Positions 13,662 through 64,000 of a stretch of DNA of 64,000 bases are shown here, piece by piece (position 1 is the first letter of the stretch; the number at the start of each line of letters is the position of its first letter). The notes under the pieces are model-generated. The model made no database searches. It had not been told where the DNA came from and was given only the letters and a program-made list of their open reading frames with translations. The stretch covers positions 144,593,464 through 144,657,463 of the forward strand of contig NC_072796.1 of assembly GCF_028583425.1 (NCBI RefSeq). Direction: 5' to 3'. The DNA comes from Eublepharis macularius (Eukaryota > Chordata > Lepidosauria > Squamata > Eublepharidae). Made by a program: the position numbers and the translations under genes.

Positions 13662-13685
13662 TTTTGTTACCAATCCACTTTTCCA

Positions 13686-16219: not shown

Positions 16220-17281
16220 ATACTCTTCATACCAGTAACGTTGGTGAATCCTGTCAAGAAAATGCACATTCGCATACAAGCCCTGATTGACTCGGGCTGC
16301 TCCAGAGACATTATCGCACCAGCTCTAGTAAATGGACTAGTACTTCCTGTAAAAGATTTGGAAATACCGGTAATTTTCGAGCAAATGGATGGCACTAACA
16401 TGAATCCAGTCACTACCGAAACCACTCCGATCATAACAGGTATGGGGCAACATTGGGAAGTAAGATCATTCGTCATTAGTGCCACAGCGAAATACCCCTT
16501 GATCCTGGGAAGCCGGTGGTTATGCGATCATAACCCTTATATCAACTGGGCAGAGGGAAGCATCACGTTCACCCATGAATTATGCAAAGACCATCGTTGG
16601 AATCAAAATTGGGGTAATAACCCTACTGTAACTGAGCCTGCTCTCCTCACCCAAGAAGAAATCAACCAAATACCCAAGCAATACACAGCGTACACCCAAG
16701 CCTTCACAGAGGAAGAAGCTAATACTTTACCTCCTCACAGGAGGACAGACTGTGCTGTGGAAATTTTACCGGGCACCTCGCTGCCCAAGGGCCGTCTATA
16801 TCCCATGAGTCCTAACGAAAGAGAAGAGCTCCGCAAGTTCATAGACCTGAATCTTCAAAGAGGATTCATTCGCCCAGCTAATAGCCCCCACGCAGCGCCA
16901 GTGCTTTTCGTTAAAAAGAAGGATGGGGGCCTAAGACTGTGCACGGACTTTCGAGGACTCAACGCAGTCTCCTCCAGCAACGCCTACCCCATCCTGCTCA
17001 TCAGAGATCTACTCAACGTCGTGGCGCAAGGTAAGGTCTTTACGAAATTAGATTTAAAAGACGCTTACTTCCATGTCCGTATCCGAGAGGGGGATGAATG
17101 GAAAACCGCTTTTAACACGCCCCTCGGCCAATATGAATATTTGGTTATGCCATTTGGTCTGGCTGGGGCACCCTCGGTTTTCATGTCCATGATCAATGAA
17201 CTGCTACATGAATTTCTATACAAAGGCGTTGTAGTGTACCTAGATGATGTGTTGATCTATTCGGAAACTGAAGAGGGTTAG
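16154..17281 (+). pseudogene. Ty3/gypsy pol, protease and partial reverse transcriptase, truncated
   Basis: This frame is -1 relative to gag and has no ATG before the conserved part, consistent with gag-pol frameshifting. An aspartic protease is seen as ALIDSGCSRDIIAP and, downstream, ILGSRWL. The reverse transcriptase follows with LRLCTDFRGLN, KLDLKDAYFHVRI, FNTPLGQYEYLVMPFGL and the catalytic YLDDVLIYS. The frame then ends because the sequence turns into telomere repeats. The last codons before the stop read ...SETEEG and the TAG comes from a TTAGGG unit. Connection, RNase H, integrase and the 3' LTR are absent, so the copy cannot transpose on its own. There is no internal damage in what remains. 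Confidence 0.88.
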
Positions 17282-17294
17282 GGTTAGGGTTAGG
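17275..17294 (+). repeat. telomere repeat tract at broken LTR element
   Basis: GGGTTAGGGTTAGGGTTAGG, 3.3 perfect vertebrate telomere units, joined directly to the interrupted pol sequence on the left and to the 3' end of a type 1 non-LTR element on the right. The G-strand reads toward the right, so the break was healed on the centromere-side fragment. Confidence 0.95.
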
Positions 17295-20200
17295 AAAATA
17301 GATTTTTTAGGAAAATAGATTTTTTATTTATAAATACCATTCTACATACACACGAGAAAAAGCTTTAAAGAACAATCAAGAACATTAAAGAACAATAAAA
17401 ACCAATAAAGAACATTAAAACTTTGCACTTTGCACTTTACACTTTGAAATTTGAACGTTACAGTAACGAAGAATGCAGTAATGAAGAAAACAGTACTGAA
17501 GAAAAACAAGGTACATAAAAAAAGTACATTAAGACTTCAACACTCGTAAGAATAAACTTACTTTACTTTAATTGTATTTTCTGCTTCTGTCTCTTTATTT
17601 CCACCCCCTACTAAATCATAGCAGGTGTGGCCTAACTTAAAGGAGTAAAGGGTAAAAGGTAAGCTTAAGTTCCAGGGGGGTTACCAAGGGGTTCCCCTGT
17701 CTTACGGGGGGGAGGCGAGGGTCCGAACTTCACCGTATAGTCCTTTTGTAAATTACCAGAGGGGGAAGACTCCCGGGACGACACTGCTGAGGCACCTCTT
17801 TGCTCCCTTTCCTCTCCTTTACTTGGTTCCTTGTCTTTACTTTGTTCCTTGTTTCCACCTCTCTTCTGTTCCTCCCCCTCTTCCTCTACTACCATCTCCG
17901 AATCCACTTCTGGTGTCTGTGAAGATTCACCTTCTCTCGCCCTTCGTTCCATTCTTTTTTCTATTTCACATGCTAAAAAATTGATCTCATCCCTCCAAAA
18001 TTGCTGTTTGTCCTTCAACCTCTTTCCCTCCTCCTGAGACCCTCCAGATTCCTCCCACTGCCGAAGCTTCTGAGTCACTCCCTCCAACTTCTCCTTAGTC
18101 TCATTACGCCACACCTCGAGTTCCTTCTCACTCATATCCCCCATGGTACGGAAAAGTGACTTCTTTGCCACAACCTGAGCCTCCCTTTTTGTCTCCCTTT
18201 TTGTCTCCCTTCTAGTTTTGGGCCTCACCGTCTGAATCTCACCACCTCCTCCTCCTCCTGCTTGTGACTCAGTCTCCATCTCCTCGCACTCTCCCAGTAT
18301 TCCAAATCTATTTCTGTTATTAGGTGCTAACCTGGGTAACAGAGTATTTCCCTCTCCTCACCTTACCTCGGGATGATCCTCTCACCTGTGTCCATCCTCC
18401 CTCCTCCCCGTCATCCTGCCTCTGTTTTTGCATTGTGCTTTCCTGATTCACAGGGGGTCCCTCCTCCTCAGTAGCTGCATCCCGAGGGGACCTCCGTTTA
18501 TGAACATGGGCCAGCCTAAGTTTTTCGTAAGCCTCAGGGTAAGCCCGGTTATAATAGGCATCTGGACACAGTAAATAAGTATGCCCCTCCCCACCACACA
18601 AATTACAGGTAACCTCGTAAGTACAGCGGATTGAATCGTGGCCCCTCCTTCCGCAAGCAGCACACAAAGACGACGTGCAATATTGTCGAATGTGATCAAA
18701 ACCTCCACACTGGAAACAAGCAGGAGGCTGCCCACTATATCTCGTTACATCTCTGTCACCCCCTAAGTAAAAGTATTTTGGAACGTGCCTGATGTTGCTA
18801 CGGTGGTCCCTCTGTAATGACACGACTGCCTTATACTCCCCTTTCCACACATTCCACGCATTCATGGCTTTCCGGGGGGGGTAGCAACACCTTGCAATGT
18901 CTCTCTAGCCATCGCTCAACATCCTCCTCCGGAATGCTAGTGGTCCGGAAGGCAACAGTGAGAACTCTCGACTCGCCTCTAAATAGGGGCACCACATCAA
19001 AGTCAGAAAAGGGATTCCTCTCAGATTTTTGGAACGCCTTAAGTACTTGCCAGAAATATTGATAAGCCCGCTCAGTCACAAAACATACGTCTGTTTCTTT
19101 CAGACCGGGGGCATAAGAACAGCTAGTATGTCCTGGGGGGAAACTTTTAAACATTCTAGCAGAGCATCCATCATGTATTCCTCTGTCAATTTTGTAGGGT
19201 CTGTTCCTTTATATCTAAACCGAACCACGAATCTCTGCCTAGGATCAAATTCAGACTCTTCTTGTTCCCTCATATTAAAGAACTCTTCCAGGAAATCCTC
19301 ATCCTCCAATTTCTCCTTTTCAAAATCTACCCGACGTCTAAGAGGCTCCCCGATATTCTCTCCTCCCCTTGGTCCCGTTGTCCCTTTTTGTTTCCCTGCT
19401 GGGCCCTTAAGCATTTGGGCATAAGACGACCCTGAGGCTAACACAGAGCTTCTACCTGATGTGGTTGGAACTGCCTGGGGGTTCAAATCATCTACAGTGG
19501 TCGTAGTTGACCCTATACTCAATCCCTCCCCAGCCTTTGTGCCTTCTGTAACATTATTAACCTTATTCACAGGAGGTTCTTTCTGCAAGGCTCCCAGAGG
19601 TCTTGCAGGCAGGTCCACATGAAGTTTACTTACAGAAAATAATGCAGTAGAACTAATGTCCATTGCCGTTATCTCCCCTGAACGAGTCCCGTGCCGTCCC
19701 ATCGTATTTGTCCTTTCAACATCTTCCAAAATCAAAGGAGCAAATGTCCCAGAAGCAGCAGTCCCAGAAGCAGCAGTCCCAAGAGGAGTATTCACAGAAT
19801 CAGCAATCCTATTTTGGTTCCTCTCATCGTGAGTAGAAATTGCTCCATTTAGTCCCTTTTGGTCAGGAGCCGCTCCATCCAAAATTCTGTTCCCTCCCGC
19901 CTCTGTCTGTGACAACCGAGGCTCAACTGTAAGAGAGAAAGCAAAAACGCCCGCAGGCCCAGTATCTTCCCTATCAACTACCCCTCGAGGGCGTTGTGCC
20001 TCTGTCAACCCTGGCACCCCCACTTTTTGTATTTCCCTCCTTTCTTCCCTGTCACACCCACCTTCTCCTTCATTGCTTTGAATATCTAGTCCTTCTGTTC
20101 TCTCTGCATACCCTCCCTCAGGAAACTCTTGCACACCTGTCTTCCCAAGGACTAGTCCTTCCACTTCCCAATCTTGTTTCCCTCCCCTTTGTTCGTCTTC

Positions 20201-21824
20201 CAAAGCTGGAATACCCTCCAGTTCCCCATCCGAGGCAGCAGCAGACTCCACCCCTGACAAACCCCCATCATCCTCACTAGTCTCCTCAACGTCCGTTCCA
20301 CTTCCCCTCCCACCCTGACCTCCCCCGCCCTTTTCTGTAGAAAGCGTCTTGCTGATACTGGGCAAGGAAACGGCAACTAAAGCCTCACCCGTTTCCGGGA
20401 GACCCTGTAAACCAGAGTCTCCCTGATTTCGAATCTGGGCCTCTTGTATCTCAGTCATCGTGGTCATCTGGGCTTGTGACGGAACGACCGCTGAACCATC
20501 CGTCTTTACCGCGGCCTTCCCTTCAGATGGTCCCTTTTCTCCAGTCCTGTTTCCCGTTCCCGTGGGTTCCATCGCCCGATCCATCCTCCGAAGTCGAACG
20601 TCGATCCAGTAGAAAGCCTGCTCGCACCAGGCCGCCCAGTCCTCATAAGTAAGTTCAGAGTTTTCATCATCGGGGCAGTCGTAAATGCCCGCAAACTCCT
20701 CCTGTACGCTTTCCTTCGCATACGTCTGAAAAATCCGCAAAGTATCCTTAAGTCCTTCTTCAGACAGCCAATCAGGATAGGTTTCCGTAGATGTACGACC
20801 TTTCCGACCAATAACAAACCTATCAACAACTTTCACAGTCAGAGATTTAGCGTAAGCGGCTTTCTCCAAAGCTGGAGGCTCGGGTTCTATCTTCCCGGTC
20901 AAACAGTCCACAAGCACTGTCCTCTGCTTGTCCAGCATACCAATCACAACATCTTTGCTCTTCTTCTTCAACGTCACAGTGTTCACTATAGGCAAAGCCA
21001 TGTGACCTACCAGAAAGGCCCAAAACTTGGCGAGATCTATTTTCTGCATCTCTTTGGGAACTAGGATGTCAAAGGCTTTAGAGATCGGTTGCAGCTTTAC
21101 TTTTTGCCAGGCTTCCAACAGATTCGCCTCCCTCGTATTTCGTGATGCATTTTTAACTTCCCCGTCTGTTTCCATATCAGTATCTGTTCCCGTTGTAGAG
21201 GGTACCGGTGACTCATTTTGCTTGGATGGCACTGGAGACTGAGTCATCCGATTTCTCATCCTCTTCTTTTCTGGGTGACCCTCTGGGGATACCCGCATCC
21301 TCTTCTGCGCAAGGTATTGAGCTGCCTCTTCATGAGCCGCCCTCTGCTCCTGTCGGTCATATGCTTGCACTAACCGCTTCAGTTCCTCACGACAAGCCAC
21401 ACTCAGTTCGTATGCTAAAGACTTTGCATCTCCATCCATTTGCATCAATACATCCACCTCCTTCCACTCCTCCATCAGTTCGGTCCGCTCATCAGGGTCC
21501 GTAGAATTCTTCAACTCACCCTCAATATCATCTCGCCTTGAATACAAGTCAAAACTGTATGACGTCTTCTCATCACATTCTCTGGCCAAACATTTCTCTT
21601 CTTCTTTCATTCTAAGGTATTGTTCTCTCAATACCTTAAGTTTATCCTTTTCTGGTGTAGGTATCTTAACTATAGCTGTCTTGCTCAACACAGGAGACTG
21701 AGAAGTCTTCCTAATATCTCTAGGAGACTTAGCTAGGTCCATATTCATTTCCAGATATTTCTCAAATTTTCGAGATCGTTCTTCAGCGTCCTCAGAAACA
21801 TTAGGTTCAAAATCAGGACAATCA

Positions 21825-21866
21825 GGGTTAGGGCTAGGGTTACTAGGGTTAGGAAAATAGATTTTT
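21825..21866 (-). repeat. in-frame telomere/3'-tail seam inside ORF1, copy 1
   Basis: Within the coding region the plus strand reads GGGTTAGGGCTAGGGTTACT then AGGGTTAGGAAAATAGATTTTTAT. This is telomere repeat followed by the same AAAATAGATTTTT tail found at every element 3' end. On the minus strand it encodes ...IKIYFPNPSNPSPNPDC... with no stop. Confidence 0.9.
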
Positions 21867-21889
21867 ATGTTCTCAGTCTTCTGGGCCTC

Positions 21890-22370
21890 CTGAGTTATGA
21901 AGGTCTCCTCATGAGTAAGAACATGTGTAACAGCGTCCCCAGCATTCAAGTTTTTCATAGGAGCAAAGGTCTCCTTGTGAGTAAGGACATGTGTAACAGC
22001 CTTCCCAGCACTCAGGTCTTGCTTAGGAGCAAAGATCTCCTCATGAGTAAGGACACGTGTAACAGCCTTCCCAGCATTCAAGTCTTGCTTAGGAGCAAAG
22101 GTCTCCTCGTGAGTAAGGACACGTGTAACAGCGTTCCCAGCATTCAAGTCTTGCTTAGCAGCAAAGGTCTCCTCATGAGTAAGGACACGTGTAACAGCGT
22201 CCCCACCATTCAGGTCTCGCTTAGCAGCAAAGGTCTCCTCATGAGTAAGGACGTGTGTAACAGCCTTCCCAGAGGCCAGGGCGTTCTTAGAAGAAAAGGT
22301 CTCCTCAAGAGTAGGGCCACGTGTAACGGGTTTACGAATGCTGTGGGTCTCCTCATGAGTAAGGGTGTCA
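21890..22370 (-). repeat. 66-bp coding tandem repeats (22-aa LTHEETF repeats), copy 1
   Basis: About seven units of a 22-aa motif with core VLTHEETFA and D-L-N-A-G spacing. Each unit carries ACACGTGT or a close variant, and so mostly an E-box CACGTG. Equivalent blocks lie at 23,800-24,340, 29,492-29,972, 31,402-31,942 and 35,035-35,450. Confidence 0.88.
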
Positions 22371-22590
22371 TTCAAGCTCTTACACCCCACGTCCTGGTCC
22401 AGATGATCCCCAGGGCCCTCATCTGTGACGTCAGAAGGCGCGACTCCCAAAGCGGATGGCAGCAGATGAAGTTCGAAGCCTTTTTCTTGTAGGCCATGCT
22501 GGGAAGTATGCTCTCCATGATCTCCATTGTCTTCTATAGGCAAAAATTCGATCTCAATTTGGGGGTCCCCCCAGGAAGGGGGGGCTCCAT

Positions 22591-22736
22591 ATTCGCACCC
22601 CCTGATGGGGGTACCCTTAGGAACAAGCTCTGACCAAAATTGAAATTTTTCTCAGAGATATAATAGGTAAAAAAAGCGAAAATCCAAACCAGGAAGTGAG
22701 AGCTCCTTGATCGCACATCTGGTATTCAAGGTGGGT
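22591..22736 (-). promoter_or_regulatory. shared 146-nt 5' leader of both element families
   Basis: The same leader, beginning CCACCCACCTTGAATA on the minus strand and ending at the ATGGAGCC start region, is exactly 146 nt in five copies: 22,591-22,736, 24,716-24,861, 30,193-30,338, 32,316-32,461 and 35,666-35,811. The constant length marks the true 5' end of the elements. As it abuts telomere repeat, any promoter must lie inside the leader or be supplied by the neighbouring element. I see no TATA box in sense orientation. Confidence 0.75.
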
Positions 22737-22775
22737 GGGGTTAGGGTTAGGGTTAGGCTTAGGCTTAGGGTTAGG
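22737..22775 (+). repeat. telomere spacer with GGCTTA variants
   Basis: About 39 bp of TTAGGG repeat containing two consecutive GGCTTA variant units. The identical spacer, variants included, occurs at 30,339-30,377. Confidence 0.95.
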
Positions 22776-24861
22776 AAAATAGATTTTTTTTTTTTAGGAA
22801 AATAGATTTTTTATTTAATAATAACCATTCTACAACAAACTGTAAGCAACAAAATCCAAGATACAAGATACATAATCACTATTGAAACAATAAAATACAG
22901 TTAAAGTACAAAAAACTAAACTGCCCTTGCTTCTGCTTCTTTTTAGCCGGTTGTTCCTCCGGGGACGAACTGTGGTCAACGACACCCTTAGGATATTTCG
23001 TTCTGGAGGAAGGGGCGATGTTTGAAGAGTCTTCATCGACTTGTGCCAGTTTGAATAAGTCCTCATAAATGTGGACCTTGTGTGTCTCTTTCCGTATTAT
23101 GTCAAGAAATCTGTCCTTCTGTTTAAGGAGTTTAGTATGCCGTTCAAGGTCCAGACAATCCACTAGGTGTTTATCCACATTTTGAATGGAAATTTCCATT
23201 TCTGTTAGCTGGTAACGAGCTTTACGTAGTCCCTCGGCCCATCTTTGCTTTTCCTCTTCGGTCTCTGGGGTAAGTCTGTGTTAGAGGAGACGATGTCTTT
23301 CTCCACGGGGATCTCCGAAGGAACAGGTTCCGATTTTGCTCTACAAGCTATAGGGGACTTAGCTAAATCCATCACCTCATCAAGATAACGGTCCATACGC
23401 CGCTGAGAAAAATCATCCCCCTTTCCCAGGACAAAGGAATCCTTTGATTGTTTACAAGCTGCTCTTTGGCGTTGGATAACAGCGACATCAATAGAGTCAA
23501 CCCGGGAAATACGGCCAGGACCGAGGTCGGAGTCAGAGGTAAGAATAAATTCAACTTCACTCCCTTGGTCAGGGCAGAGTCTTGACTGCTGTATGTCTTC
23601 CTGAAATTTGGTGCTGTGGGAGGGGCCCCTTGTCTGTTTAAGGGCCTGTCCTTGTTTCTCCATTTGCACAGCCGCTGTTATCGGAAGTCTATCTTGGCTT
23701 TTAATAGATTGCATATCTGGTTCAGCCGTGTCAACATCTGGGTCAGCAAGCGGGTCCATCACATCACAACACACTGGTGCGTCAGAATCAGGAATGGGAG
23801 TAGAGGTCTCCTCAGGAGTAAGGACCTGTGTAATAACGTTCTCGGTCTTCTGCGCCTCCTGGGTTATAAAGGTCTCCTCATGAGTAAGAACATGTGTAAC
23901 AGGGTCCCCAGCATTCAGGCCTTTCGTAAGAGCAAAGGTCTCCTCGTGAGTAAGGACACGTGTAACAGCCTTGCTAGCATTCAGGATTTGCATAGGAGTA
24001 AAGGTCTCCTCGTGAGTAAGGACATGTGTAACGGCCTCCCCAACATTCAGGTCTCGCGTAGGAGCAAAGGTCTCCTCATGAGTAAGGATGCGTGTAACAG
24101 CCTCCCCAGCATTCAAGTTTTGTGTAGGAGCAAAGGTCTCCTCATGAGTAAGGACACGTGTAACAGTCTCCCCAACATTCAGGTCTTGCGTAGGAGCAAA
24201 GGTCTCCTCACGAGTAAGGACACGTGCAACAGCCTTCCCAGAGGCCAGGGCGTTCTTAGAAGGAAAGGTCTCCTCAAGAGTAGGGCCACGTGTAACGGGT
24301 TTTCGAATGCTCTGGGTCTCCTCCTGAGTAAAGGTGCCATTCAAACTCTCACCCACCACGTCCAGGGCCAGGTCATCCCCAGACCCCTCTAAGGTTACAG
24401 CTGCCTGTTCTGTTGCTTGTTCCATTGAAAGCAATAGGGAAAAGGGATTCTCCTTTAAAGCAGCAGGGGTCTTCTGGGAGGGGTCAGAACCCAAAATGGA
24501 GGTCCGGTCAATATTCCCCAGGGGCCCTTGAACATCCTTACTGTCCGTTACGTCCGAAGGCGCGACTCCCAAAGCGGATGGCAGCAGATGAAGTTGGAAG
24601 CCTTTTTCTTGTAGGCCATGCTGGGAAGCATGCTCTCCATTGTCTCCATTGTCTTATATAGGCAAAAATTCGATCTCAATTTGGGGGTCCCCCCCCAGGA
24701 GGGGGGGGGCTCCATATTCGCACCCCTTGATGAGGGTACCCTTAGGAACAAACTCTGACCAAATTTGAAATTTTTCTCAGAGATATAATAGGTAAAAAAA
24801 GCGAAAATCCAAACCAGGAAGTGAGAGCTCCTTGATCGCACGTCTGCTATTCAAGGTGGGT
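22776..24861 (-). mobile_element. type 2 internal-deletion derivative, copy 1
   Basis: 2.09 kb, complete at both ends. The 3' end has the type 2 UTR (ccattctacaacaaactgtaagc) and the 5' end the shared 146-nt leader. Inside, the 3' UTR jumps at about 22,925 straight to the N-terminal third of ORF1. Relative to the full type 2 copy this removes the equivalent of about 36,007-44,415, that is all of ORF2 and two thirds of ORF1. The break has one or two bases of microhomology (gc). It keeps both termini and is presumably mobilised in trans, like a LINE-derived non-autonomous element. Confidence 0.88.
22879..24715 (-). pseudogene. type 2 ORF1 N-terminal remnant
   Basis: The coding remains are at 23,205-24,572 (455 aa) and 22,879-23,199 (106 aa). 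They include the 22-aa LTHEETF repeats, then MDLAKSP, then a basic coiled-coil-like stretch ending in the 3' UTR. A one-base deletion near 23,265, shared with the copy at 30,807, splits the frame. In addition, the leader ATG at 24,715 is out of frame and a TAA stop interrupts the 5' coding part near 24,657. No zinc knuckles remain. Confidence 0.85.
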
Positions 24862-24894
24862 GGGGTTAGGGTTAGGGTTAGGGTTAGGGTTAGG
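24862..24894 (+). repeat. telomere spacer
   Basis: About five TTAGGG units between the 5' end of the type 2 derivative and the 3' end of the next type 1 element. Confidence 0.95.
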
Positions 24895-25266
24895 AAAATA
24901 GATTTTTTTTAGGAAAATAGATTTTTTATTTATAAATACCATTCTACATACACACAAGAAAAAGCTTTAAAGAACAATCAAGAACATTAAAGAACAATAA
25001 AAACCAATAAAGAACATTAAAACTTTGCATTTTGCACTTTACACTTTGAAATTTGAATGTTACAGTAACATAGAATGCAGTAATGAAGAAAACAGTACTG
25101 AAGAAAAACAAGGTACATAAAGAAAGTACATAAAGACTTCAACACTCGTAAGAATAAACTTACTTTACTTCAACTGTATTTTCTGCTTCTGTCTCTTTAT
25201 TTCCACCCCCTACTAAATCATAGCAGGTGTGGCCTAACTTAAAGAAGTAAAGGGTAAAAGGTAAAC

Positions 25267-25588
25267 TTAAGTTCCAGGGGGGTTACCAAGGGGTTCCCCT
25301 GTCTTACGGGGGGGAGGCGAGGGTCTGAACTTCACCGTATAGTCCTTTTGTAAATTACCAGAGGGGGAAGACTCCCGGGACGACACTGCTGAGGCACCTC
25401 TTTGCTCCCTCTCCTCTCTTTTACTTGGTTCCTTGTCTTTACTTTGTTCCTTGTTTCCACCTCTCTTCTGTTCCTCCCCCTGTTCCTCTACTACCATCTC
25501 CAAATCCACTTCCTGTGTCTGTGAAGATTCACCTTCTCTCGCCCTTCGTTCCATTCTTTTTTCTATTTCACATGCTAAAAAATTGATC
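25267..25588 (-). pseudogene. C-terminal tail of type 1 ORF1, out of frame
   Basis: Encodes the charged tail (MERRAREGESSQTQE... to NPPGT) that in the copy at 62,104 is continuous with ORF1. Here it is separated from the upstream frame by loss of two bases in 'ttcctgtttg' (reads 'ttcctttg'). Confidence 0.85.
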
Positions 25589-30145: not shown

Positions 30146-30338
30146 AAATTCGATCTCAATTTGGGGGTCCCCCCAGGAAGGGGGGGCTCCATATTCGCAC
30201 CCCCTGATGGGGGTACCCTTAGGAACAAGCTCTGACCAAAATTGAAATTTTTCTCAGAGATATAATAGGTAAAAAAAGCGAAAATCCAAACCAGGAAGTG
30301 AGAGCTCCTTGATCGCACATCTGGTATTCAAGGTGGGT

Positions 30339-30377
30339 GGGGTTAGGGTTAGGGTTAGGCTTAGGCTTAGGGTTAGG
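30339..30377 (+). repeat. telomere spacer with GGCTTA variants, second copy
   Basis: Identical to 22,737-22,775 including both variant hexamers, which marks the 7.6-kb dimer as a duplication. Confidence 0.95.
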
Positions 30378-32461: not shown

Positions 32462-32482
32462 GGGGTTAGGGTTAGGGTTAGG
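32462..32482 (+). repeat. telomere spacer
   Basis: About three TTAGGG units between elements. Confidence 0.95.
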
Positions 32483-32854
32483 AAAATAGATTTTTTTTAG
32501 GAAAATAGATTTTTTATTTATAAATACCATTCTACATACACACAAGAAAAAGCTTTAAAGAACAATCAAGAACATTAAAGAACAATAAAAACCAATAAAG
32601 AACATTAAAACTTTGCATTTTGCACTTTACACTTTGAAATTTGAATGTTACAGTAACATAGAATGCAGTAATGAAGAAAACAGTACTGAAGAAAAACAAG
32701 GTACATAAAGAAAGTACATAAAGACTTCAACACTCGTAAGAATAAACTTACTTTACTTCAACTGTATTTTCTGCTTCTGTCTCTTTATTTCCACCCCCTA
32801 CTAAATCATAGCAGGTGTGGCCTAACTTAAAGGAGTAAAGGGTAAAAGGTAAAC

Positions 32855-35665: not shown

Positions 35666-35811
35666 ATTCGCACCCCCTGATGGGGGTACCCTTAGGAACA
35701 AGCTCTGACCAAAATTGAAATTTTTCTCAGAGATATAATAGGTAAAAAAAGCGAAAATCCAAACCAGGAAGTGAGAGCTCTTTGATCGCACGTCTGGTAT
35801 TCAAGGTGGGT

Positions 35812-35856
35812 GGGGTTAGGGTTAGGGTTAGGGTTAGGGTTAGGGTTATGGTTAGG
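35812..35856 (+). repeat. telomere spacer, longest between elements
   Basis: About seven units of TTAGGG type with one TTATGG variant, between the type 1 copy 3 leader and the full type 2 element. Confidence 0.95.
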
Positions 35857-40190: not shown

Positions 40191-40308
40191 TGGTATTGTT
40201 AATGAATATAAGATAGCAGCAATAGCTATAAAACCATAAGCCATCTTAAATCCAGTTCCATTGAACTTATCGACTGTCATTTTATCTTTGCCTATTCCTA
40301 TTCTTTTC

Positions 40309-45162: not shown

Positions 45163-45180
45163 AGCTGCTGTTATCGGAAG

Positions 45181-45540
45181 TCAGGGTCGGGGTCGGGGTC
45201 GGGGTCGGGGTTGGGGTCGGGGTTACGGTCAGGGTCAGGGTTACGGTCAGGGTCAGGGTCAGGGTCAGGGTCAGGGTTACGGTCAGGGTCAGGGTCAGGG
45301 TCAGGGTCAGGGTCAGGGTCAGGGTCAGGGTTACGGTCAGGGTCAGGGTCAGGGTCAGGGTCAGGGTTACGGTCAGGGTCAGGGTTACGGTCAGGGTCAG
45401 GGTCAGGGTTACGGTCAGGGTCAGGGTCAGGGTCAGGGTCAGGGTCAGGGTTACGGTCAGGGTCAGGGTCAGGGTCAGGGTCAGGGTCAGGGTCAGGGTC
45501 AGTGTTACGGTCAGGGTCAGGGTTACGGTCAGGGTCAGGG
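45181..45540 (+). repeat. variant telomere-like hexamer array
   Basis: About 60 hexamers: first about five GGGTCG units, then mostly GGGTCA with regularly interspersed GGGTTA-CGGTCA pairs. Canonical TTAGGG runs are absent. The hexamer register is kept throughout. The array adjoins the 5'-truncated type 2 element on the left and the satellite on the right. All units are G-rich on the same strand as the true telomere repeats, so the orientation agrees with them. Confidence 0.93.
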
Positions 45541-54500: not shown

Positions 54501-57500
54501 GTCTTCGGAGGAGGGGTGTGGCTGGAGTTTAGAGTTTGGAAGTGTTCTATACCTAGGGTGAGATGCAGACAGGGTTCCGTATTCAGTGTTTGTCTTTTTC
54601 GTAATGGTCTGGGGATGATTTACGGGATGTCCCTTTGCTGGATGTCTCCAAACAGAGAACGAGTCGCCCTGAGGGCGGGCGAGCGAGGGAGTTAGAGTTC
54701 CTCCCATTACCTCCCTGCCCGGCATTGAGCGTTTGATATAGGGTTCTATCCAGTCTTTTGAGGAGGGTTGTGGCTGGAGTTTAGAGTTTCGAAGAGTTCT
54801 ATACCTAGGGTGAGATGCAGACAGGGTTCTGTTTTCAGTGTTTGTCTTTTTCGTAATGGTCTGGGGATGATTTACGTGATGTCCCTTGGCTGGATGTCTC
54901 CAAACAGAGAACGAGTCGCCCAGAGGGCGGGCGAGCGAGGGAATTAGAGTTTCTCCCATTACCTCCCTGCCCGGCATTGAGGGTTTGATATAGGGTTCTA
55001 TCAGGTCTTCGGAGGAGGGGTAAGGCTGTAGTTTAGAGTTTAAAAGAGTTCTATACCTAGGGTGAGATGCAGACAGGGTTCCGTATTCAGTGTTTGTCTT
55101 TTTCATAATGGTCTGGGGATGATTTATGGGATGTCCCTTTGCTGGATGTCTCCAAACAGAGAACGAGTCGCCCTAAGGGCGGGCGGGCGAGGGAGTTAGA
55201 GTTCCTCCCATTACCTCCGTGCCCGGCATTGAGGGTTTGATATAGGGTTCTATCCAGTCTTTGGAGGAGGGGTGTGGCTGGACTTAAGAGTTTGGAAGTG
55301 TTCTATACCAAGGGTGAGATGCAGACAGGGTTCTGTATTCAGTGTTTGTCTTTTTCGTAATGGTCTGGGGATGATTTACGGGATGTCCCTCGGCTGAATG
55401 TCTCCAGAGAACGAGTCGCCTGAGGGCGGGCAAGCAAGGGAGTGAGAGCATGTCCCCTCCCCTCCCTGCCCGGCATTGAGGGTTTGATATAGGGTTCTAT
55501 CCAGTCTTCGGAGGAGGGGTGTGGCTGGAGTTTAGAGTTTAAAAGAGTTCTATACTTAGGGTGAGATGCAGACAGGGTTCCGTATTCAGTTTTTGTCTTT
55601 TTCGTAATGGTCTGGGGATGATTTACGTTATGTCCCTTGGCTGGATGTCTCCAAACAGCAAACGAGTCGCCCTTAGGGCGGGTGACCGAGTGAGTTAGAG
55701 TTCCTCCCATTACCTCCCTGCCCAGCATTGAGGGTTTGATATAGGGTTCTATCCAGTCTTTGGAGGAGGGTTGTGGCTGGAGTTTAGAGTTTGGAAGTGT
55801 TCTATACCTAGGGTGAGATGCAGACAGGGTTCCGTATTCAGTTTTTGTCTTTTTCGTAATGGTCTGGGGATGATTTACGGGATGTCCCTTTGCTGGATGT
55901 CTCCAAAAAGAGAACGAGTCGCCCTGAGGGCGGGTGAGCGAGGGAGTTAGAGTTCCTCCCATTACCTCCCTGCCCGGCATTGAGGGTTTGATATACGGTT
56001 CTATCCAGTCTTCGGAGGAGGGGTGTGGCTGGAGTTTAGAGTTTGGAAGTGTTCTATACATAGGGTGAGATGCTGACAAGTTCCGTATTCAGTGTTTGTC
56101 TTTTTCGTAATGGTCTGGGGATGATTTACGGGATGTCCCTTTGCTGGATGTCTCCAAACAGAGAACGAGTCGCCCTGAGGGCGGGCGAGCGAGGGAGTTA
56201 GAGTTCCTCCCATTACCTCCCTGCCCGGCATTGAGCGTTTGATATAGGGTTCTATCCAGTCTTTTGAGGAGGGTTGTGGCTGGAGTTTAGAGTTTCGAAG
56301 AGTTCTATACCTAGGGTGAGATGCAGACAGGGTTCTGTTTTCAGTGTTTGTCTTTTTCGTAATGGTCTGGGGATGATTTACGTGATGTCCCTTGGCTGGA
56401 TGTCTCCAAACAGAGAACGAGTCGCCCAGAGGGCGGGCGAGCGAGGGAATTAGAGTTTCTCCCATTACCTCCCTGCCCGGCATTGAGGGTTTGATATAGG
56501 GTTCTATCAGGTCTTCGGAGGAGGGGTAAGGCTGTAGTTTAGAGTTTAAAAGAGTTCTATACCTAGGGTGAGATGCAGACAGGGTTCCGTATTCAGTGTT
56601 TGTCTTTTTCATAATGGTCTGGGGATGATTTATGGGATGTCCCTTTGCTGGATGTCTCCAAACAGAGAACGAGTCGCCCTAAGGGCGGGCGGGCGAGGGA
56701 GTTAGAGTTCCTCCCATTACCTCCGTGCCCGGCATTGAGGGTTTGATATAGGGTTCTATCCAGTCTTTGGAGGAGGGGTGTGGCTGGACTTAAGAGTTTG
56801 GAAGTGTTCTATACCAAGGGTGAGATGCAGACAGGGTTCTGTATTCAGTGTTTGTCTTTTTCGTAATGGTCTGGGGATGATTTACGGGATGTCCCTCGGC
56901 TGAATGTCTCCAAACAGAGAACGAGTCGCCTGAGGGCGGGCAAGCAAGGGAGTGAGAGCATGTCCCCTCCCCTCCCTGCCCGGCATTGAGGGTTTGATAT
57001 AGGGTTCTATCCAGTCTTCGGAGGAGGGGTGTGGCTGGAGTTTAGAGTTTAAAAGAGTTCTATACTTAGGGTGAGATGCAGACAGGGTTCCGTATTCAGT
57101 TTTTGTCTTTTTCGTAATGGTCTGGGGATGATTTACGTTATGTCCCTTGGCTGGATGTCTCCAAACAGCAAACGAGTCGCCCTTAGGGCGGGTGACCGAG
57201 GGAGTTAGAGTTCCTCCCATTACCTCCCTGCCCAGCATTGAGGGTTTGATATAGGGTTCTATCCAGTCTTTGGAGGAGGGTTGTGGCTGGAGTTTAGAGT
57301 TTGGAAGTGTTCTATACCTAGGGTGAGATGCAGACAGGGTTCCGTATTCAGTTTTTGTCTTTTTCGTAATGGTCTGGGGATGATTTACGGGATGTCCCTT
57401 TGCTGGATGTCTCCAAAAAGAGAACGAGTCGCCCTGAGGGCGGGTGAGCGAGGGAGTTAGAGTTCCTCCCATTACCTCCCTGCCCGGCATTGAGGGTTTG

Positions 57501-60500
57501 ATATACGGTTCTATCCAGTCTTCGGAGGAGGGGTGTGGCTGGAGTTTAGAGTTTGGAAGTGTTCTATACATAGGGTGAGATGCTGACAAGTTCCGTATTC
57601 AGTGTTTGTCTTTTTCGTAATGGTCTGGGGATGATTTACGGGATGTCCCTTTGCTGGATGTCTCCAAACAGAGAACGAGTCGCCCTGAGGGCGGGCGAGC
57701 GAGGGAGTTAGAGTTCCTCCCATTACCTCCCTGCCCGGCATTGAGCGTTTGATATAGGGTTCTATCCAGTCTTTTGAGGAGGGTTGTGGCTGGAGTTTAG
57801 AGTTTCGAAGAGTTCTATACCTAGGGTGAGATGCAGACAGGGTTCTGTTTTCAGTGTTTGTCTTTTTCGTAATGGTCTGGGGATGATTTACGTGATGTCC
57901 CTTGGCTGGATGTCTCCAAACAGAGAACGAGTCGCCCAGAGGGCGGGCGAGCGAGGGAATTAGAGTTTCTCCCATTACCTCCCTGCCCGGCATTGAGGGT
58001 TTGATATAGGGTTCTATCAGGTCTTCGGAGGAGGGGTAAGGCTGTAGTTTAGAGTTTAAAAGAGTTCTATACCTAGGGTTAGATGCAGACAGGGTTCCGT
58101 ATTCAGTGTTTGTCTTTTTCGTAATGGTCTGGGGATGATTTACGGGATGTCCCTCGGCTGAATGTCTCCAAACAGAGAACGAGTCGCCTGAGGGCGGGCA
58201 AGCAAGGGAGTGAGAGCATGTCCCCTCCCCTCCCTGCCCGGCATTGAGAGTTTGATATAGGGTTCTATCCAGTCTTTGGAGGAGGGGTGTGGCTGGACTT
58301 AAGAGTTTGGAAGTGTTCTATACCTAGGGTGGGATGCAGAAAGGGTTCTGTATTCAGTTTTTGTCTTTTTCGTAATGGTCTGGGGATGATTTATGTTATG
58401 TCCCTCGGTTGGATGTCTCCAAACAGCGAACGAGTCGCCCTTAGGGCGGGCGAGCGAGGGAGTTAGAGTTCCTCCCATTACCTCCCTGCCCAGCATTGAG
58501 GGTTTGATATAGGGTTCTATCCAGTCTTCGGAGGAGGGGTAAGGCTGTAGTTTAGAGTTTAAAAGAGTTCTATACCTAGGGTGAGATGCAGACAGGGTTC
58601 CGTATTCAGTGTTTGTCTTTTTCATAATGGTCTGGGGATGATTTATGGGATGTCCCTTTGCTGGATGTCTCCAAACAGAGAACGAGTCGCCCTAAGGGCG
58701 GGCGGGCGAGGGAGTTAGAGTTCCTCCCATTACCTCCCTGCCCGGCATTGAGGGTTTGATATAGGGTTCTATCCAGTCTTTGGAGGAGGGGTGTGGCTGG
58801 ACTTAAGAGTTTGGAAGTGTTCTATACCAAGGGTGAGATGCAGACAGGGTTCTGTATTCAGTGTTTGTCTTTTTCGTAATGGTCTGGGGATGATTTACGG
58901 GATGTCCCTCGGCTGAATGTCTCCAAACAGAGAACGAGTCGCCTGAGGGCGGGCAAGCAAGGGAGTGAGAGCATGTCCCCTCCCCTCCCTGCCCGGCATT
59001 GAGGGTTTGATATAGGGTTCTATCCAGTCTTCGGAGGAGGGGTGTGGCTGGAGTTTAGAGTTTAAAAGAGTTCTATACTTAGGGTGAGATGCAGACAGGG
59101 TTCCGTATTCAGTTTTTGTCTTTTTCGTAATGGTCTGGGGATGATTTACGTTATGTCCCTTGGCTGGATGTCTCCAAACAGCAAACGAGTCGCCCTTAGG
59201 GCGGGTGAGCGAGGGAGTTAGAGTTCCTCCCATTACCTCCCTGCCCAGCATTGAGGGTTTGATATAGGGTTCTATCCAGTCTTTGGAGGAGGGTTGTGGC
59301 TGGAGTTTAGAGTTTGGAAGTGTTCTATACCTAGGGTGAGATGCAGACAGGGTTCCGTATTCAGTTTTTTCTTTTTCGTAATGGTCTGGGGATGATTTAC
59401 GGGATGTCCCTTTGCTGGATGTCTCCAAAAAGAGAACGAGTCGCCCTGAGGGCGGGTGAGCGAGGGAGTTAGAGTTCCTCCCATTACCTCCCTGCCCGGC
59501 ATTGAGGGTTTGATATACGGTTCTATCCAGTCTTCGGAGGAGGGGTGTGGCTGGAGTTTAGAGTTTGGAAGTGTTCTATACATAGGGTGAGATGCTGACA
59601 AGTTCCGTATTCAGTGTTTGTCTTTTTCGTAATGGTCTGGGGATGATTTACGGGATGTCCCTTTGCTGGATGTCTCCAAACAGAGAACGAGTCGCCCTGA
59701 GGGCGGGCGAGCGAGGGAGTTAGAGTTCCTCCCATTACCTCCCTGCCCGGCATTGAGCGTTTGATATAGGGTTCTATCCAGTCTTTTGAGGAGGGTTGTG
59801 GCTGGAGTTTAGAGTTTCGAAGAGTTCTATACCTAGGGTGAGATGCAGACAGGGTTCTGTTTTCAGTGTTTGTCTTTTTCGTAATGGTCTGGGGATGATT
59901 TACGGGATGTCCCTTGGCTGGATGTCTCCAAACAGAGAACGAGTCGCCCTGAGGGCGGGCGAGCGAGGGAATTAGAGTTCCTCCCATTACCTCCCTGCCC
60001 GGCATTGAGGGTTTGATATACGGTTCTATCCAGTCTTCGGAGGAGGGGTGTGGCTGGAGTTTAGAGTTTAAAAGAGTTCTATACCTAGGGTGAGATGCAG
60101 ACAGGGTTCCGTATTCAGTGTTTGTCTTTTTCGTAATGGTCTGGGGATGATTTACGGGATGTCCCTTTGCTGGATGTCTCCAAACAGAGAACGAGTCGCC
60201 CTGAGGGCGGGCGAGCGAGGGAGTTAGAGTTCCTCCCATTACCTCCCTGCCCGGCATTGAGCGTTTGATATAGGGTTCTATCCAGTCTTTTGAGGAGGGT
60301 TGTGGCTGGAGTTTAGAGTTTCGAAGAGTTCTATACCTAGGGTGAGATGCAGACAGGGTTCTGTTTTCAGTGTTTGTCTTTTTCGTAATGGTCTGGGGAT
60401 GATTTACGTGATGTCCCTTGGCTGGATGTCTCCAAACAGAGAACGAGTCGCCCAGAGGGCGGGCGAGCGAGGGAATTAGAGTTTCTCCCATTACCTCCCT

Positions 60501-61660
60501 GCCCGGCATTGAGGGTTTGATATAGGGTTCTATCAGGTCTTCGGAGGAGGGGTAAGGCTGTAGTTTAGAGTTTAAAAGAGTTCTATACCTAGGGTGATAT
60601 GCAGACAGGGTTCCGTATTCAGTGTTTGTCTTTTTCGTAATGGTCTGGGGATGATTTACGGGATGTCCCTCGGCTGAATGTCTCCAAACAGAGAACGAGT
60701 CGCCTGAGGGCGGGCAAGCAAGGGAGTGAGAGCATGTCCCCTCCCCTCCCTGCCCGGCATTGAGAGTTTGATATAGGGTTCTATCCAGTCTTTGGAGGAG
60801 GGGTGTGGCTGGACTTAAGAGTTTGGAAGTGTTCTATACCTAGGGTGGGATGCAGACAGGGTTCTGTATTCAGTTTTTGTCTTTTTCGTAATGGTCTGGG
60901 GATGATTTATGTTATGTCCCTCGGTTGGATGTCTCCAAACAGCGAACGAGTCGCCCTTAGGGCGGGCGAGCGAGGGAGTTAGAGTTCCTCCCATTACCTC
61001 CCTGCCCAGCATTGAGGGTTTGATATAGGGTTCTATCCAGTCTTCGGAGGAGGGGTAAGGCTGTACTTTAGAGTATAAAAGAGTTCTATACCTAGGGTGA
61101 TATGCAGACAGGGTTCCGTATTCAGTGTTTGTCTTTTTCGTAATGGTCTGGGGATGATTTACTGGATATCTATTTGCTGGATGTCTCCAAACAGAGAACG
61201 AGTCGCCCTGAGGGCGGGCAAGCGAGGGAGTTAGAGTTCCTCCCATTACCTCCCTGCCCGGCATTGAGCGTTTGATATAGGGTTCTATCCAGTCTTTGGA
61301 GAAGGGGTGTGGCTGGAGTTTAGAGTTTCGAAGAGTTCTATACCTAGGGTGAGATGCAGACAGGGTTCTGTATTCAGTGTTTGTCTTTTTCGTAATGGTC
61401 TGGGGATGATTTACGGGATGTCCCTTGGCTGGATGTCTCCAAACAGAGAACGAGTCCCCCTTAGGGTGGGCGAGCGAGGGAGTGAGAGTTTCTCCCCTCC
61501 CCGCCCTGCCCGGCATTGAGGGTTTCATATAGGGTTCTATCCACTCTTTGGAGGAGGGGTGGGGCTGTAGTTTAGAGTTTAAAAGGGTTCTATACCTAGG
61601 GTGAGATGCAAACAGGGTTCCGTATTCAGTGTTTCTTTTTCATAATGGTCTGGGGATGAT
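45541..61660 (-). repeat. 252-bp satellite array, about 64 units, with higher-order repeats
   Basis: The landmark 'ggtctggggatgattta' recurs every 252 bp. A distinctive variant unit ('gagcatgtcccctccc') occurs at 48,151, 50,166, 52,432, 53,943, 55,450, 56,960, 58,218, 58,972 and 60,733. The steps are close to 8, 9, 6, 6, 6, 5, 3 and 7 units, showing higher-order units of mostly 1.5 kb. 252 is divisible by three and the minus strand of the unit has no stop in one frame, so long frames of 84-aa repeats appear (up to 890 codons). They are broken by a one-base deletion in the variant unit. I treat it as subtelomeric satellite, not a gene. Both array ends fall at the same point of the unit (TGGGGATGATT). 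Confidence 0.93.
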
Positions 61661-61725
61661 TCAGGGTTAGGGTTAGGGTTGTGGTTGGGGTTAGGCTTAG
61701 GGTTAGGCTTAGGCTTAGGGTTAGG
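61661..61725 (+). repeat. telomere repeats with GGCTTA and GGTTGT variants
   Basis: About 65 bp of degenerate TTAGGG repeat between the satellite and the next element, richer in variants than the other spacers. Confidence 0.93.
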
Positions 61726-64000
61726 AAAATAGATTTTTTTTTTTTTTTTAGGAAAATAGATTTTTTATTTATAAATACCATTCTACATACACACGAGAAA
61801 AAGCTTTAAAGAACAATCAAGAACATTAAAGAACAATAAAAACCAATAAAGAACATTAAAACTTTGCACTTTGCACTTTACACTTTTAAATTTGAACGTT
61901 ACAGTAACGAAGAATGCAGTAATGAAGAAAACAGTACTGAAGAAAAACAAGGTACATAAAAAAGTACATTAAGACTTCAACACTCGTAAGAATAAACTTA
62001 CTTTACTTTAATAGTATTTTCTGCTTCTGTCTCTTTATTTCCACCCCCTACTAAATCATAGCAGGTGTGGCCTAACTTAAAGGAGTAAAGGGTAAAGGTA
62101 AACTTAAGTTCCAGGGGGGTTACCAAGGGGTTCCCCTGTCTTACGGGGGGGAGGCGAGGGTCCGAACTTCACCGTATAGTCCTTTTGTAAATTAACAGAG
62201 GGGGAAGACTCTCGGGATGACACTGCTGAGGCACCTCTTTGCTCTCTTTCCTCTCCTTGCTCCCTTTCCTCTCCTTTACTTGGTTTCTTGTCTTTACTTT
62301 GTCCCTTGTTTCCACCTCTTTTCTGTTCCTCCCCCTGTTCCTCTACTACCATCTCCAAATCCACTTCCTGTGTCTGTGAAGATTCACCTTCTCTCGCCCT
62401 TCGTTCCATTCTTTTTTCTATTTCACATGCTAAAAAATTGATCTCATCCCTCCAAAATTGCTGTTTGTCCTTCAACCTCTTTCCCTCCTCCTGAGACCCT
62501 CCAGATTCCTCCCACTGCCGAAGCTTCTGAGTCACTCCCTCCAACTTCTCCTTAGTCTCATTACGCCACACCTCGAGTTCCTTCTCACTCATATCCTCCA
62601 TGGTACGGAAAAGTGACTTCTTTGTCTCAATCTGAGCCTCCCTTTTTGTCTCCCTTTTTGTCTCCCTTCTAGCTTTGGGCCTCACCGTCTGAATCTCACC
62701 ACCTCTTCCTCCTTCTGCTTGTGACTCAGTCTCCATCTCCTCGCACTCTCCCAGTATTCCAAATCTATTTCTGTTATTAGGTACTAACTTCTGGGTAACA
62801 GAGTATATCCCTCTCCTCACCTTACCTCGGGATGATCCTCTCACCTGTGTCCATCCTCCCTCCTCCCCGTCATCCTGCCTCTGTTTTTGCATTGTGCTTT
62901 CCTGATTCACAGAGGGTCTCTCCTCCTCAGTAGCTGTATCCTGAGGGGACTTCTGTTTATGGACATGGGCCAGCCTAAGTTTTTCGTAAGCCTCAGGGTA
63001 AGCCCGGTTATAATAGGCATCTGGACACAGTAAATAAGTATGTCCCTCCCCACCACACAAATTACAGGTAACCTCGTAAGTACAGCGGATTGAATCGTGG
63101 CCCCTCCTTCCGCAAGCGGCACACAAAGATGACGTGCAATCTTGTCGAATGTGATCAAAACCTCCACACTGGAAACAAGCAGGAGGCTGCCCACTATATC
63201 TCGTTACACCTCTGTCACCCCCTAAGTAAAAGTACTTTGGAACGTGCCTGATGTTGCTACGGTGGTCCCTCTGTAATGACACGACTGCCTTATACTCCCC
63301 TTTCCACACATTCCACGCATTCATGGCTTTCCGGGGGGGTAGCAACACCTTGCAATGTCTCTCAAGCCATCGCTCAACATCCTCCTCTGGAATGTTAGTG
63401 GTCCGAAAGGCAACAGTGAGAACTCTCGACTCGCCTCTAAATAGGGGCACCACATCAAAGTCAGAAAAGGGATTCCTCTCAGATTTTTGGAAAGCCTTAA
63501 GTACTTGCCAGAAATATTGATAAGCCCGCTCAGTCACAAAGCATACGTCTGTTTCTTTCAGACCAGGGGGCATAAGAACAGCTAGTATGTCCTGGGGGGA
63601 AACTTTTAAACATTCTAGCAGAGCATCCATCATGTATTCCTCTGTCAATTTTGTAGGGTCTGTTCCTTTATATCTAAACCGAACCACGAATCTCTGCCTA
63701 GGATCAAATTCAGACTCTTCTTGTTCCCTCCTATTAAAGAACTCTTCCAGGAATTCCTCATCCTCCAATTTCTCCTTTTCAAAATCTACCCGACGTCTAA
63801 GAGGCTCCCCGATATTCTCTCCTCCCCTTGGTCCCGTTGTCCCTTTTTGTTTCCCTGCTGGGCCCTTAAGCATTTGGGCATAAGACGACCCTGAGGCTAA
63901 CACAGAGCTTCTACCTGATGTGTTTGGAACTGCCTGGGGGTTCAAATCATCTGCAGTAGTCGTAGTTGACCCTATACTCAATCCCTCCCCAGCCTTTGTG
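61726..64000 (-). mobile_element. type 1 telomeric non-LTR retrotransposon, copy 4 (runs off window)
   Basis: The 3' tail has a long A-run (15 T on the plus strand between two tail units), the type 1 3' UTR, and ORF1 from its C-terminus to the window edge. Only the 3' 2.3 kb is visible. Small differences from the other three type 1 copies (for example an extra GEEREQ-type repeat near the C-terminus) show that it is a separate lineage, not another copy of the 7.6-kb dimer. Confidence 0.92.
62104..64000 (-). CDS. type 1 ORF1, C-terminal part, uninterrupted to the window edge
   Basis: At least 625 codons without a break, continuing past the right edge. It contains the RRM-like segments (FVVRFRYKG, LTVAFRTT), the three CCHC knuckles (first one CFQCGGFDHIRQDC) and the full charged C-terminal tail ending in NPPGT. 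The three upstream copies each lost this by frameshift or stop. This gives the true C-terminus of type 1 ORF1 and confirms that no ORF2 lies between it and the tail: the stop at 62,104 is followed by about 375 bp of 3' UTR only. Confidence 0.9.
   Translation of the reverse strand, partial: TKAGEGLSIGSTTTTADDLNPQAVPNTSGRSSVLASGSSYAQMLKGPAGKQKGTTGPRGGENIGEPLRRRVDFEKEKLEDEEFLEEFFNRREQEESEFDPRQRFVVRFRYKGTDPTKLTEEYMMDALLECLKVSPQDILAVLMPPGLKETDVCFVTERAYQYFWQVLKAFQKSERNPFSDFDVVPLFRGESRVLTVAFRTTNIPEEDVERWLERHCKVLLPPRKAMNAWNVWKGEYKAVVSLQRDHRSNIRHVPKYFYLGGDRGVTRYSGQPPACFQCGGFDHIRQDCTSSLCAACGRRGHDSIRCTYEVTCNLCGGEGHTYLLCPDAYYNRAYPEAYEKLRLAHVHKQKSPQDTATEEERPSVNQESTMQKQRQDDGEEGGWTQVRGSSRGKVRRGIYSVTQKLVPNNRNRFGILGECEEMETESQAEGGRGGEIQTVRPKARRETKRETKREAQIETKKSLFRTMEDMSEKELEVWRNETKEKLEGVTQKLRQWEESGGSQEEGKRLKDKQQFWRDEINFLACEIEKRMERRAREGESSQTQEVDLEMVVEEQGEEQKRGGNKGQSKDKKPSKGEEREQGEEREQRGASAVSSRESSPSVNLQKDYTVKFGPSPPPRKTGEPLGNPPGT

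Follow-up and report, generated by a model that had tools for sequence, protein, structure and literature searches.

Retrotransposons that target telomeres are well known in flies, silkworms, fungi and algae; in vertebrates they have, to our knowledge, gone almost unnoticed. Among the described systems, the HeT-A, TART and TAHRE elements of Drosophila stand head-to-tail with their 3' ends inward, gag-only elements beside gag-pol ones (according to passages of PMC5537684), and TRAS1 and SART1 of Bombyx insert in telomere repeats beside telomerase-type repeats (passages of PMC7265360). In Magnaporthe oryzae, passages of PMC7367193 describe MoTeR1 and MoTeR2 as head-to-tail arrays with 5' ends tipward and TTAGGG tracts of half a unit to more than 20 units between copies. 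We have analyzed here a window of 64,000 nucleotides from the gecko Eublepharis macularius (contig NC_072796.1, C7 below; C7:144593464-144657463), which is the whole stretch to which the positions below refer. It holds seven elements (E1 to E7) of two families, the gag-only family A and family B with two open reading frames, ORF1 and ORF2. We consider it very probable that they are telomere-repeat-targeting non-LTR (long terminal repeat) retrotransposons of the L1/Tx1 type, whose RNA is copied from a TTAGGG primer and which are then re-capped and amplified by recombination.

A sequence-only reading of this DNA knew of no described vertebrate system of this form. That claim has to be dropped, since a passage of PMC10088271 (Mob DNA 2023) lists Tx1-1_ACar of the green anole, a telomere-specific Tx1 element, among the telomere-inserted elements, citing Kojima and Jurka 2013 (Repbase Reports), so that the kind is already known in one squamate. 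No gecko case appeared among the papers listed in searches of the open-licence literature, which does not by itself show absence from print.

Copies at the chromosome ends

The genome comprises 2.24 Gb in 72 contigs, and 99.8% of it lies in the 19 largest, which we have treated as chromosome contigs with 38 ends. Pattern searches of the whole genome gave per-family tail listings of 100 A and 100 B copies. Exact tails occur in at least 106 A-specific and at least 131 B-specific copies, with 0 matches for the reversed-pattern controls, and a 21-base tail has 260 matches in the genome (reversed control, 0). Of the 200 listed copies, 187 are located within 1 Mb of the ends of the chromosome contigs, a region that makes up 1.7% of the 19 contigs, and every one of these 187 has its 3' end inward. 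The listed copies occupy at least 34 of the 38 ends; 11 of the remaining ones are interior and two are on small contigs.

The 3' flanks were inspected in 110 copies (the 100 listed for the 21-base tail and 10 more). A match of at least 15/18 to (TTAGGG)3 was found on the G strand in 97 of them and on the other strand in none (0/110), against 9 of 2200 shuffles. Among the 13 other flanks, five abut the end or tail of another element through a very short tract (L031, L047, L062, L074, L118) and eight are non-telomeric (L033-L038, L045, L120). The copies are neither mostly outside telomere repeats nor randomly oriented, and the targeting and the one-way, HeT-A/TART-like orientation that had been proposed from the window hold genome-wide. 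Families A and B are telomere-repeat-specific non-LTR retrotransposons, with exceptions that include four interior A copies among the 200. Three interior copies, L035-L037, carry the end of the 21-base tail with a different 3' untranslated region (TTTACAA.CC) and no telomere; perhaps they belong to a non-telomeric relative.

Telomere repeats terminate 15 of the 38 contig ends, three of them behind 2.5 kb of N. The other 23 ends showed no terminal telomere repeat in the stretch read, which for two (left ends of C10 and C17) consists of N. We read the border of the terminal TTAGGG at the left ends of C4, C9 and C16 and at the right ends of C7 and C12, and in 5/5 the adjoining DNA was an element: a full 5' end at C4, C9 and C12, a 5'-truncated copy at C16 and a tail-only copy at C7. 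For C4 and C12 the reading covered ~60 telomere units next to the element and, separately, the repeats with which the contig closes. The C7 terminal array measures ~8.7 kb of pure TTAGGG. An assembly artefact at chromosome ends, for which the ends lacking a terminal repeat and telomeric blocks on C1 at 1.8-7.6 Mb could be cited, appears to us very unlikely indeed, given that the same geometry recurs on 34 of the 38 ends and that telomere repeat closes 15. The C1 blocks lie in the interior of the contig at 1.81, 3.73-3.79 and 7.38-7.63 Mb (L021-L027, L155-L163); the one at 7.4-7.6 Mb is oriented as a right-hand end, and a scaffolding error, an inversion and an old fusion are candidate explanations.

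Two exons with the Telomerase_RBD domain, both above the cut-off, are found at C7:15.5 Mb and are the part of the gene that was checked. Unlike the hosts of HeT-A and TART, which have no telomerase and chromosome ends made of elements only, the gecko has these domain exons together with terminal repeats. The role in telomere maintenance that the sequence-only reading had entertained finds no support, as a gene with the telomerase RNA-binding domain and terminal TTAGGG arrays are both present.

The element array of the window

The window lies 33-97 kb inward from the C7 tip, with the contig ending 33 kb past it, and the tip is to its right because TTAGGG reads from left to right. Its features are as follows.

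1704-2729: CCDC166, best named matches in geckos (Paroedura 86%, Sphaerodactylus 84%)
13635-17281: Ty3/gypsy-type element with gag, protease and reverse transcriptase matches, broken off in the middle of the reverse transcriptase, TTAGGG directly after
17275-17294, plus: TTAGGG tract from the truncated gypsy element (left) to E1
17295-22738, minus: E1, family A (gag-only), both ends present, ORF1 split over several frames
17323-17328, minus: AATAAA in the 3' tail of E1, then CCTA, a variable A run, the second tail copy and TTAGGG
22739-22775, plus: TTAGGG/TTAGGC tract from E1 to E2, same as 30341-30377
22776-24863, minus: E2, derivative of family B with an internal deletion, 5' region and 3' tail retained
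24864-24894, plus: TTAGGG tract from E2 to E3
24895-30340, minus: E3, family A, both ends present
25589-30253, minus: ORF1 of E3, open frame of 1554 codons (stop to stop)
29427-29468, minus: fossil 3' tail with degenerate telomere repeats within the A ORF1; also in E1 (~21849), E5 (~34990) and E7
30341-30377, plus: TTAGGG/TTAGGC tract from E3 to E4
30378-32463, minus: E4, internally deleted B derivative, 99.76% identical to E2
32464-32482, plus: TTAGGG tract from E4 to E5
32483-35813, minus: E5, family A, with an internal deletion of ~2 kb
35814-35856, plus: TTAGGG tract from E5 to E6
35857-45182, minus: E6, family B with ORF1 and ORF2, 5'-truncated
36396-40343, minus: ORF2 of E6, open frame of 1315 codons (stop to stop), with endonuclease of APE type and reverse transcriptase; its Met at 40190 aligns with the P0001 start
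40927-45180, minus: ORF1 of E6 in three overlapping frames (43420-45180, 41355-43484, 40927-41853)
45175-45541, plus: telomere-variant array, mostly TCAGGG with some TTACGG and TCGGGG, abutting the truncated 5' end of E6
45539-61661: 252-bp satellite, 64 copies, between elements and adjoining the TCAGGG-type array
61661-61725, plus: TTAGGG/TTAGGC tract from the satellite to E7
61726-64000, minus: E7, family A, running ~3350 bases beyond the window end

The 3' end of each of the seven minus-strand elements begins at a TTAGG/AAAATAG junction, with outer tail copies at 17290, 22771, 24890, 30373, 32478, 35852 and 61721. The 17-base telomere pattern TTAGGGTTAGGGTTAGG, allowing one mismatch at most, matches 20 times in the window, always on the plus strand and at element junctions, and never in 100 shuffles. 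Five of the six 5' ends within the window (E1-E5) are flush with TTAGGG; the sixth, that of E6, is truncated and abuts a TCGGGG/TCAGGG array, and the seventh 5' end, that of E7, lies ~3.35 kb outside. The sequence-only reading was right that the antisense strand of the elements continues the TTAGGG strand, and its seven elements of one orientation with 3' ends inward were all recovered. It needs correcting on three other points. The location is near the chromosome end and not at it, C7 ending in its pure TTAGGG array 33 kb beyond the window. The block 17275-64000 is not element throughout, 45183-61660 being TCAGGG-type array and satellite. Besides, the insertions are not all independent: 17274-27391 and 24874-34981 are 99.06% identical, a tandem duplication of the A+B unit, and junction E1/E2 matches junction E3/E4 exactly, variant TTAGGC units included. 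Seven independent insertions are ruled out by this duplication, and there are at most five. The orientation within the window is by itself weak evidence since the copies are not independent, and the genome census is decisive.

Array growth by recombination is evident in this genome, and this duplication is one sign of it. On C2, tracts of 8 and 7 units alternate with equal T runs, one unusual tract is common to C12 and C1, and the order B, TCAGGG array, satellite is found both in the window and at the right end of C9. It could be argued from these data that subtelomeric exchange and array amplification carried a small number of old insertions from one chromosome end to another, recent transposition having played little part. 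We regard recombination as the only process as improbable, for the T runs in the tails vary from 4 to 22, several families are involved, and the dN/dS (ratio of nonsynonymous to synonymous substitution rates) of ORF2 is well below 1.

The 252-bp satellite was also seen in the C1 telomeric block at 7.63 Mb (L161, L162) and beside the TCAGGG array at the right end of C9 (L168). Variant arrays (TCAGGG, TCGGGG, TTACGG, TTTAGG) occur at some element ends, i.e., at 45175-45541 of the window, L009 (~4736-4920), L003 (~4156-4260), L168 (283-556) and L171. Inside the TCAGGG array of L168, at ~415-430, TTAGGAAAATAGGG is found, six or seven tail bases after which the repeats resume; perhaps this is a trace of abortive reverse transcription. 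The joint at 17275 resembles a broken chromosome end that was healed.

Coding capacity of the families

Family A is represented in the window by E1, E3, E5 and E7 and family B by E6, E2 and E4 being B elements with most of the body deleted. The deletion joint of E2 and E4 (2-nt overlap, by eye) is unlike splice sites, so that an origin by splicing was discarded and an ordinary internal deletion is likelier. Family B is ~10.7 kb long and L1/Tx1-like, and A is 5.4-5.7 kb with no ORF2 in the four copies read. The two families resemble each other at both termini: the first ~0.3 kb is 94-95% identical, the next 0.55 kb, with 66-bp repeats, 88-89%, and the last ~60 bp of the tail is common, compared with only 68% DNA identity over 0.8 kb in the ORF1 bodies. 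The 66-bp tandem repeats, with a length that is a multiple of three, keep the reading frame in the 5' coding part of A and B (e.g., 21900-22327) and encode repeats of 22 amino acids.

ORF2 of family B contains the Exo_endo_phos and RVT_1 domains (Pfam) and endonuclease motifs, and LINE-1 (long interspersed element) ORF2p is its nearest relative among solved structures (E 1.5e-50). The endonuclease as predicted, a model of modest confidence (mean pLDDT, i.e., predicted local distance difference test, 62.6), has the LINE-1 endonuclease as best match, the topmost being the hairpin-exchange variant LTx. The nearest three sequence matches are two unnamed proteins and one from Varanus. A restriction-like endonuclease was not among the Pfam matches of ORF2, an APE-type one being found instead. 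By these matches ORF2 belongs to an L1/Tx1-type non-LTR retrotransposon, with APE endonuclease and reverse transcriptase and L1 ORF2p as the nearest protein of solved structure.

Of 31843 first-look candidates for B ORF2 we scored the best 35; every one is full length and 34 are stop-free, a share that comes from a biased sample since scoring was confined to the top candidates. The dN/dS among nine copies (one with a stop; a tenth, one base shorter and frameshifted, was excluded) was between 0.11 and 0.58 in pairs and 0.22 when pooled. Codon comparison thus indicates that B ORF2 is under purifying selection, and values so far below 1 imply selection through retrotransposition at some time.

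ORF1 encodes two ZCCHC3-like RNA-binding domains (Pfam) and three CCHC-type knuckles recognized by eye; in the E3 frame the first ATG is at codon 232. Among scored near-full-length copies of A ORF1, 28 of 30 are stop-free, and four separate N-terminal pieces have one stop each. Between A and B the pN/pS values (proportions of nonsynonymous and synonymous differences) were 0.24/0.76, 0.31/0.88 and 0.45/0.76, with pS saturated. No homologue of residues 900-1554 was found at E<=0.001 among the 8000 candidates scored, and the viral contigs scanned contained no relative. On the plus strand opposite the elements (17275-45700), the 8 frames scanned, of 11 with at least 150 codons, gave 0 Pfam matches, and the Rfam and tRNA scans were empty. 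A 912-amino acid frame of the satellite matching DUF2805/FlgT_C was dismissed as a chance match in repeats.

A third family, C, is found on C7 beyond the window; its ORF2 protein is 61% identical to that of B, and its ORF1 is open over 1868 codons by coordinates, spanning two abutting pieces. The tail of a fourth family, D, AAATCTTTATTTTCC, is present on C1, C2, C7, C11 and C12. Beside the C1 blocks, L158 and L160 contain an ORF2-like coding sequence distinct from B, perhaps of a further family (by eye).

In the A ORF1 of E1, E3, E5 and E7 the tail motif and degenerate telomere repeats lie between the B-like 5' region and the A body, which in E5 is shortened by the deletion. In L059, L087, L088 and L098, as judged by eye, a telomere tract directly adjoins the A body at this same position. 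The simplest account would be that transcription starting in a B-like deletion derivative read through its tail and the adjoining telomere tract into the next element, and that this RNA was copied back, making A a chimera.

Insertion route and comparison with known systems

The tail follows one plan, with an AATAAA-like signal, tail, variable A run, second tail and CCCTAA. The duplicated A/B tail with a T run between its copies was found in 86 of 100 inspected, and the tails of C and D share the plan. In three tails tested the predicted RNA folded no better than shuffles. G-quadruplex motifs showed no strand pattern, each element having 0-1 on the TTAGGG strand and 0-2 on the sense strand. The full-length cDNA terminus is GGTGGGTGG, followed by TTAGGG.

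We propose that the sense RNA, with its AATAAA, is probably polyadenylated after CCUA and would end CCUAA-like. A TTAGGG 3' end, from a G-strand nick or a chromosome overhang, would pair with the tail and prime reverse transcription, and a cDNA primed in this way would therefore continue the G strand with its 5' end toward the chromosome tip. More specifically, the TTAGG primer may pair with CCUAA near the RNA end and be copied for a short distance, after which the T-rich cDNA could slip onto the poly(A) and copying restart. Full-length cDNA would end in GGTGGGTGG, and telomerase or repair would add TTAGGG to this end and to truncated ones too. Short interstitial tracts and recombination could then build head-to-tail arrays behind an ordinary telomere. 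Family A, encoding ORF1 only, presumably borrows the ORF2 of B or of a relative through the common 3' tail.

Priming at a nick and priming at an end, the latter being the geometry that the sequence-only reading had in mind, are two versions of this explanation that cannot be told apart from the sequence. In the first, to which we would give close to an even chance, ORF2 nicks the G strand of existing TTAGGG and inserts by target-primed, endonuclease-driven copying as TRAS/SART do, no free end being required. The endonuclease motifs with their LINE-1-like model and the purifying selection on ORF2 agree with this, and so do the TTAGGG on the 3' side of most inspected copies and again at full 5' ends. 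The C1 blocks away from contig ends are likewise TTAGGG-flanked, although they comprise several elements each and a scaffolding error may account for them. However, the fixed orientation and junction equally fit priming at an end, and random insertion in arrays of kilobases would leave long proximal tracts, whereas at most 17 units were observed in 58 copies.

The second version, which we find quite possible if somewhat short of even, is priming by the chromosome G overhang, independent of the endonuclease and mostly at very short or damaged telomeres, as with HeT-A/TART. It is favored by the terminal arrays flush with full-length, truncated or tail-only copies and by the gypsy element cut in its reverse transcriptase and capped at 17275. 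Six tested 5'-truncated ends with a known intact counterpart also bear on it: all (6/6; L108 was left uncounted as it repeats the joint of L054) overlap the repeat in phase by 3-4 nt, 4.7% being expected per random break, and at the 5' joint of E6 it is the TCNGGG variant whose phase is kept. These overlaps fit telomerase healing and microhomology joining both. Against this version, the endonuclease is conserved, and the terminal telomeres read measure kilobases while the interstitial tracts are short.

Several observations weigh against the proposed explanation as a whole. Away from the ends there are 11 of the 200 listed copies, seven on C1 with telomere-type flanks and four A copies without them. 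One copy of B ORF2 is frameshifted and one has a stop. The dN/dS among the A copies of the window is neutral or weak (E3/E1 1.04, E3/E7 0.47), and E3/E5 differ by 15 nonsynonymous and 0 synonymous changes, possibly an alignment effect near the deletion. Many copies are products of recombination and not insertions, and both mobility and the borrowing of ORF2 by A are putative. Lastly, the interstitial tracts from tail to full 5' end measure 1.7-16.7 units in 58 copies, compared with the 8.7 kb of the C7 terminal telomere, and count against simple addition at the tip because addition to a long telomere would leave long tracts. Either the telomeres were very short when the elements arrived, or arrival was near the array base, or the tracts shrank later.

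A more far-reaching possibility, unlikely in our opinion, is a telomerase-positive vertebrate with a division of labour like that of HeT-A/TART, in which gag-only A and gag-pol B and C would add to TTAGGG 3' ends and aid end repair, e.g., through the healing of breaks and of critically short ends, with the gypsy joint at 17275 as an example, and read-through at head-to-tail junctions would make chimeric families.

With Tx1-1_ACar the gecko elements share a squamate host, an L1-like/Tx1-type and insertion in telomere repeats, as far as the citing description in PMC10088271 goes. Mammalian LINE-1 reportedly inserts at telomeres independently of its endonuclease in mutant cells (Morrish 2007); there too an L1-type reverse transcriptase of a vertebrate host would use telomeric 3' ends as primers, the difference being that no genome-wide resident family is involved.

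The arrays themselves recall the MoTeR elements, which in passages of PMC7367193 also have a non-autonomous partner sharing both ends, are reshaped by breaks and recombination and carry in-frame seeds at truncated ends (17 of 23). The variant telomere arrays at gecko element ends recall the TTTGGG tracts of MoTeR. The same passages give MoTeR1 a CRE/SLACS-like reverse transcriptase and a restriction-like endonuclease, in contrast to the L1-like, APE-type gecko protein, and MoTeR2 a replacement sequence without obvious function, where A has its long, mostly stop-free ORF1. As in Bombyx, the gecko insertions stand beside telomerase-type repeats, and passages of PMC7265360 assign poly(A) and a telomere-like part of the tail a role in starting reverse transcription. 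TRAS1 and SART1 are, however, of the R1 clade and insert in opposite directions to each other. With Drosophila the gecko has in common the gag-only elements beside gag-pol ones, head-to-tail with 3' ends inward. The fly has no telomerase, and its telomeric elements keep one strand G-rich like canonical telomeres (a passage of PMC10088271), whereas the TTAGGG strand of gecko A is C-rich, with a GC skew of -0.16 to -0.24 (~-0.21 in 17330-22724 and 24945-30326).

The gecko copies are apparently young and lie next to telomerase-type telomeres, so that the place of telomeric LINEs, as parasites, as passengers or as helpers in end maintenance, is now directly testable in a vertebrate, and the system provides an L1-type reverse transcriptase that is naturally specific for telomeres. 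What is new here is a gag-only and gag-pol pair like HeT-A and TART, of which it looks like a separate parallel, with several families and a telomere-containing chimera, on at least 34 of 38 ends of a genome with a telomerase gene. We would place it nearest to MoTeR in architecture, to HeT-A/TART in division of labour and to SART1 in tail-dependent priming.

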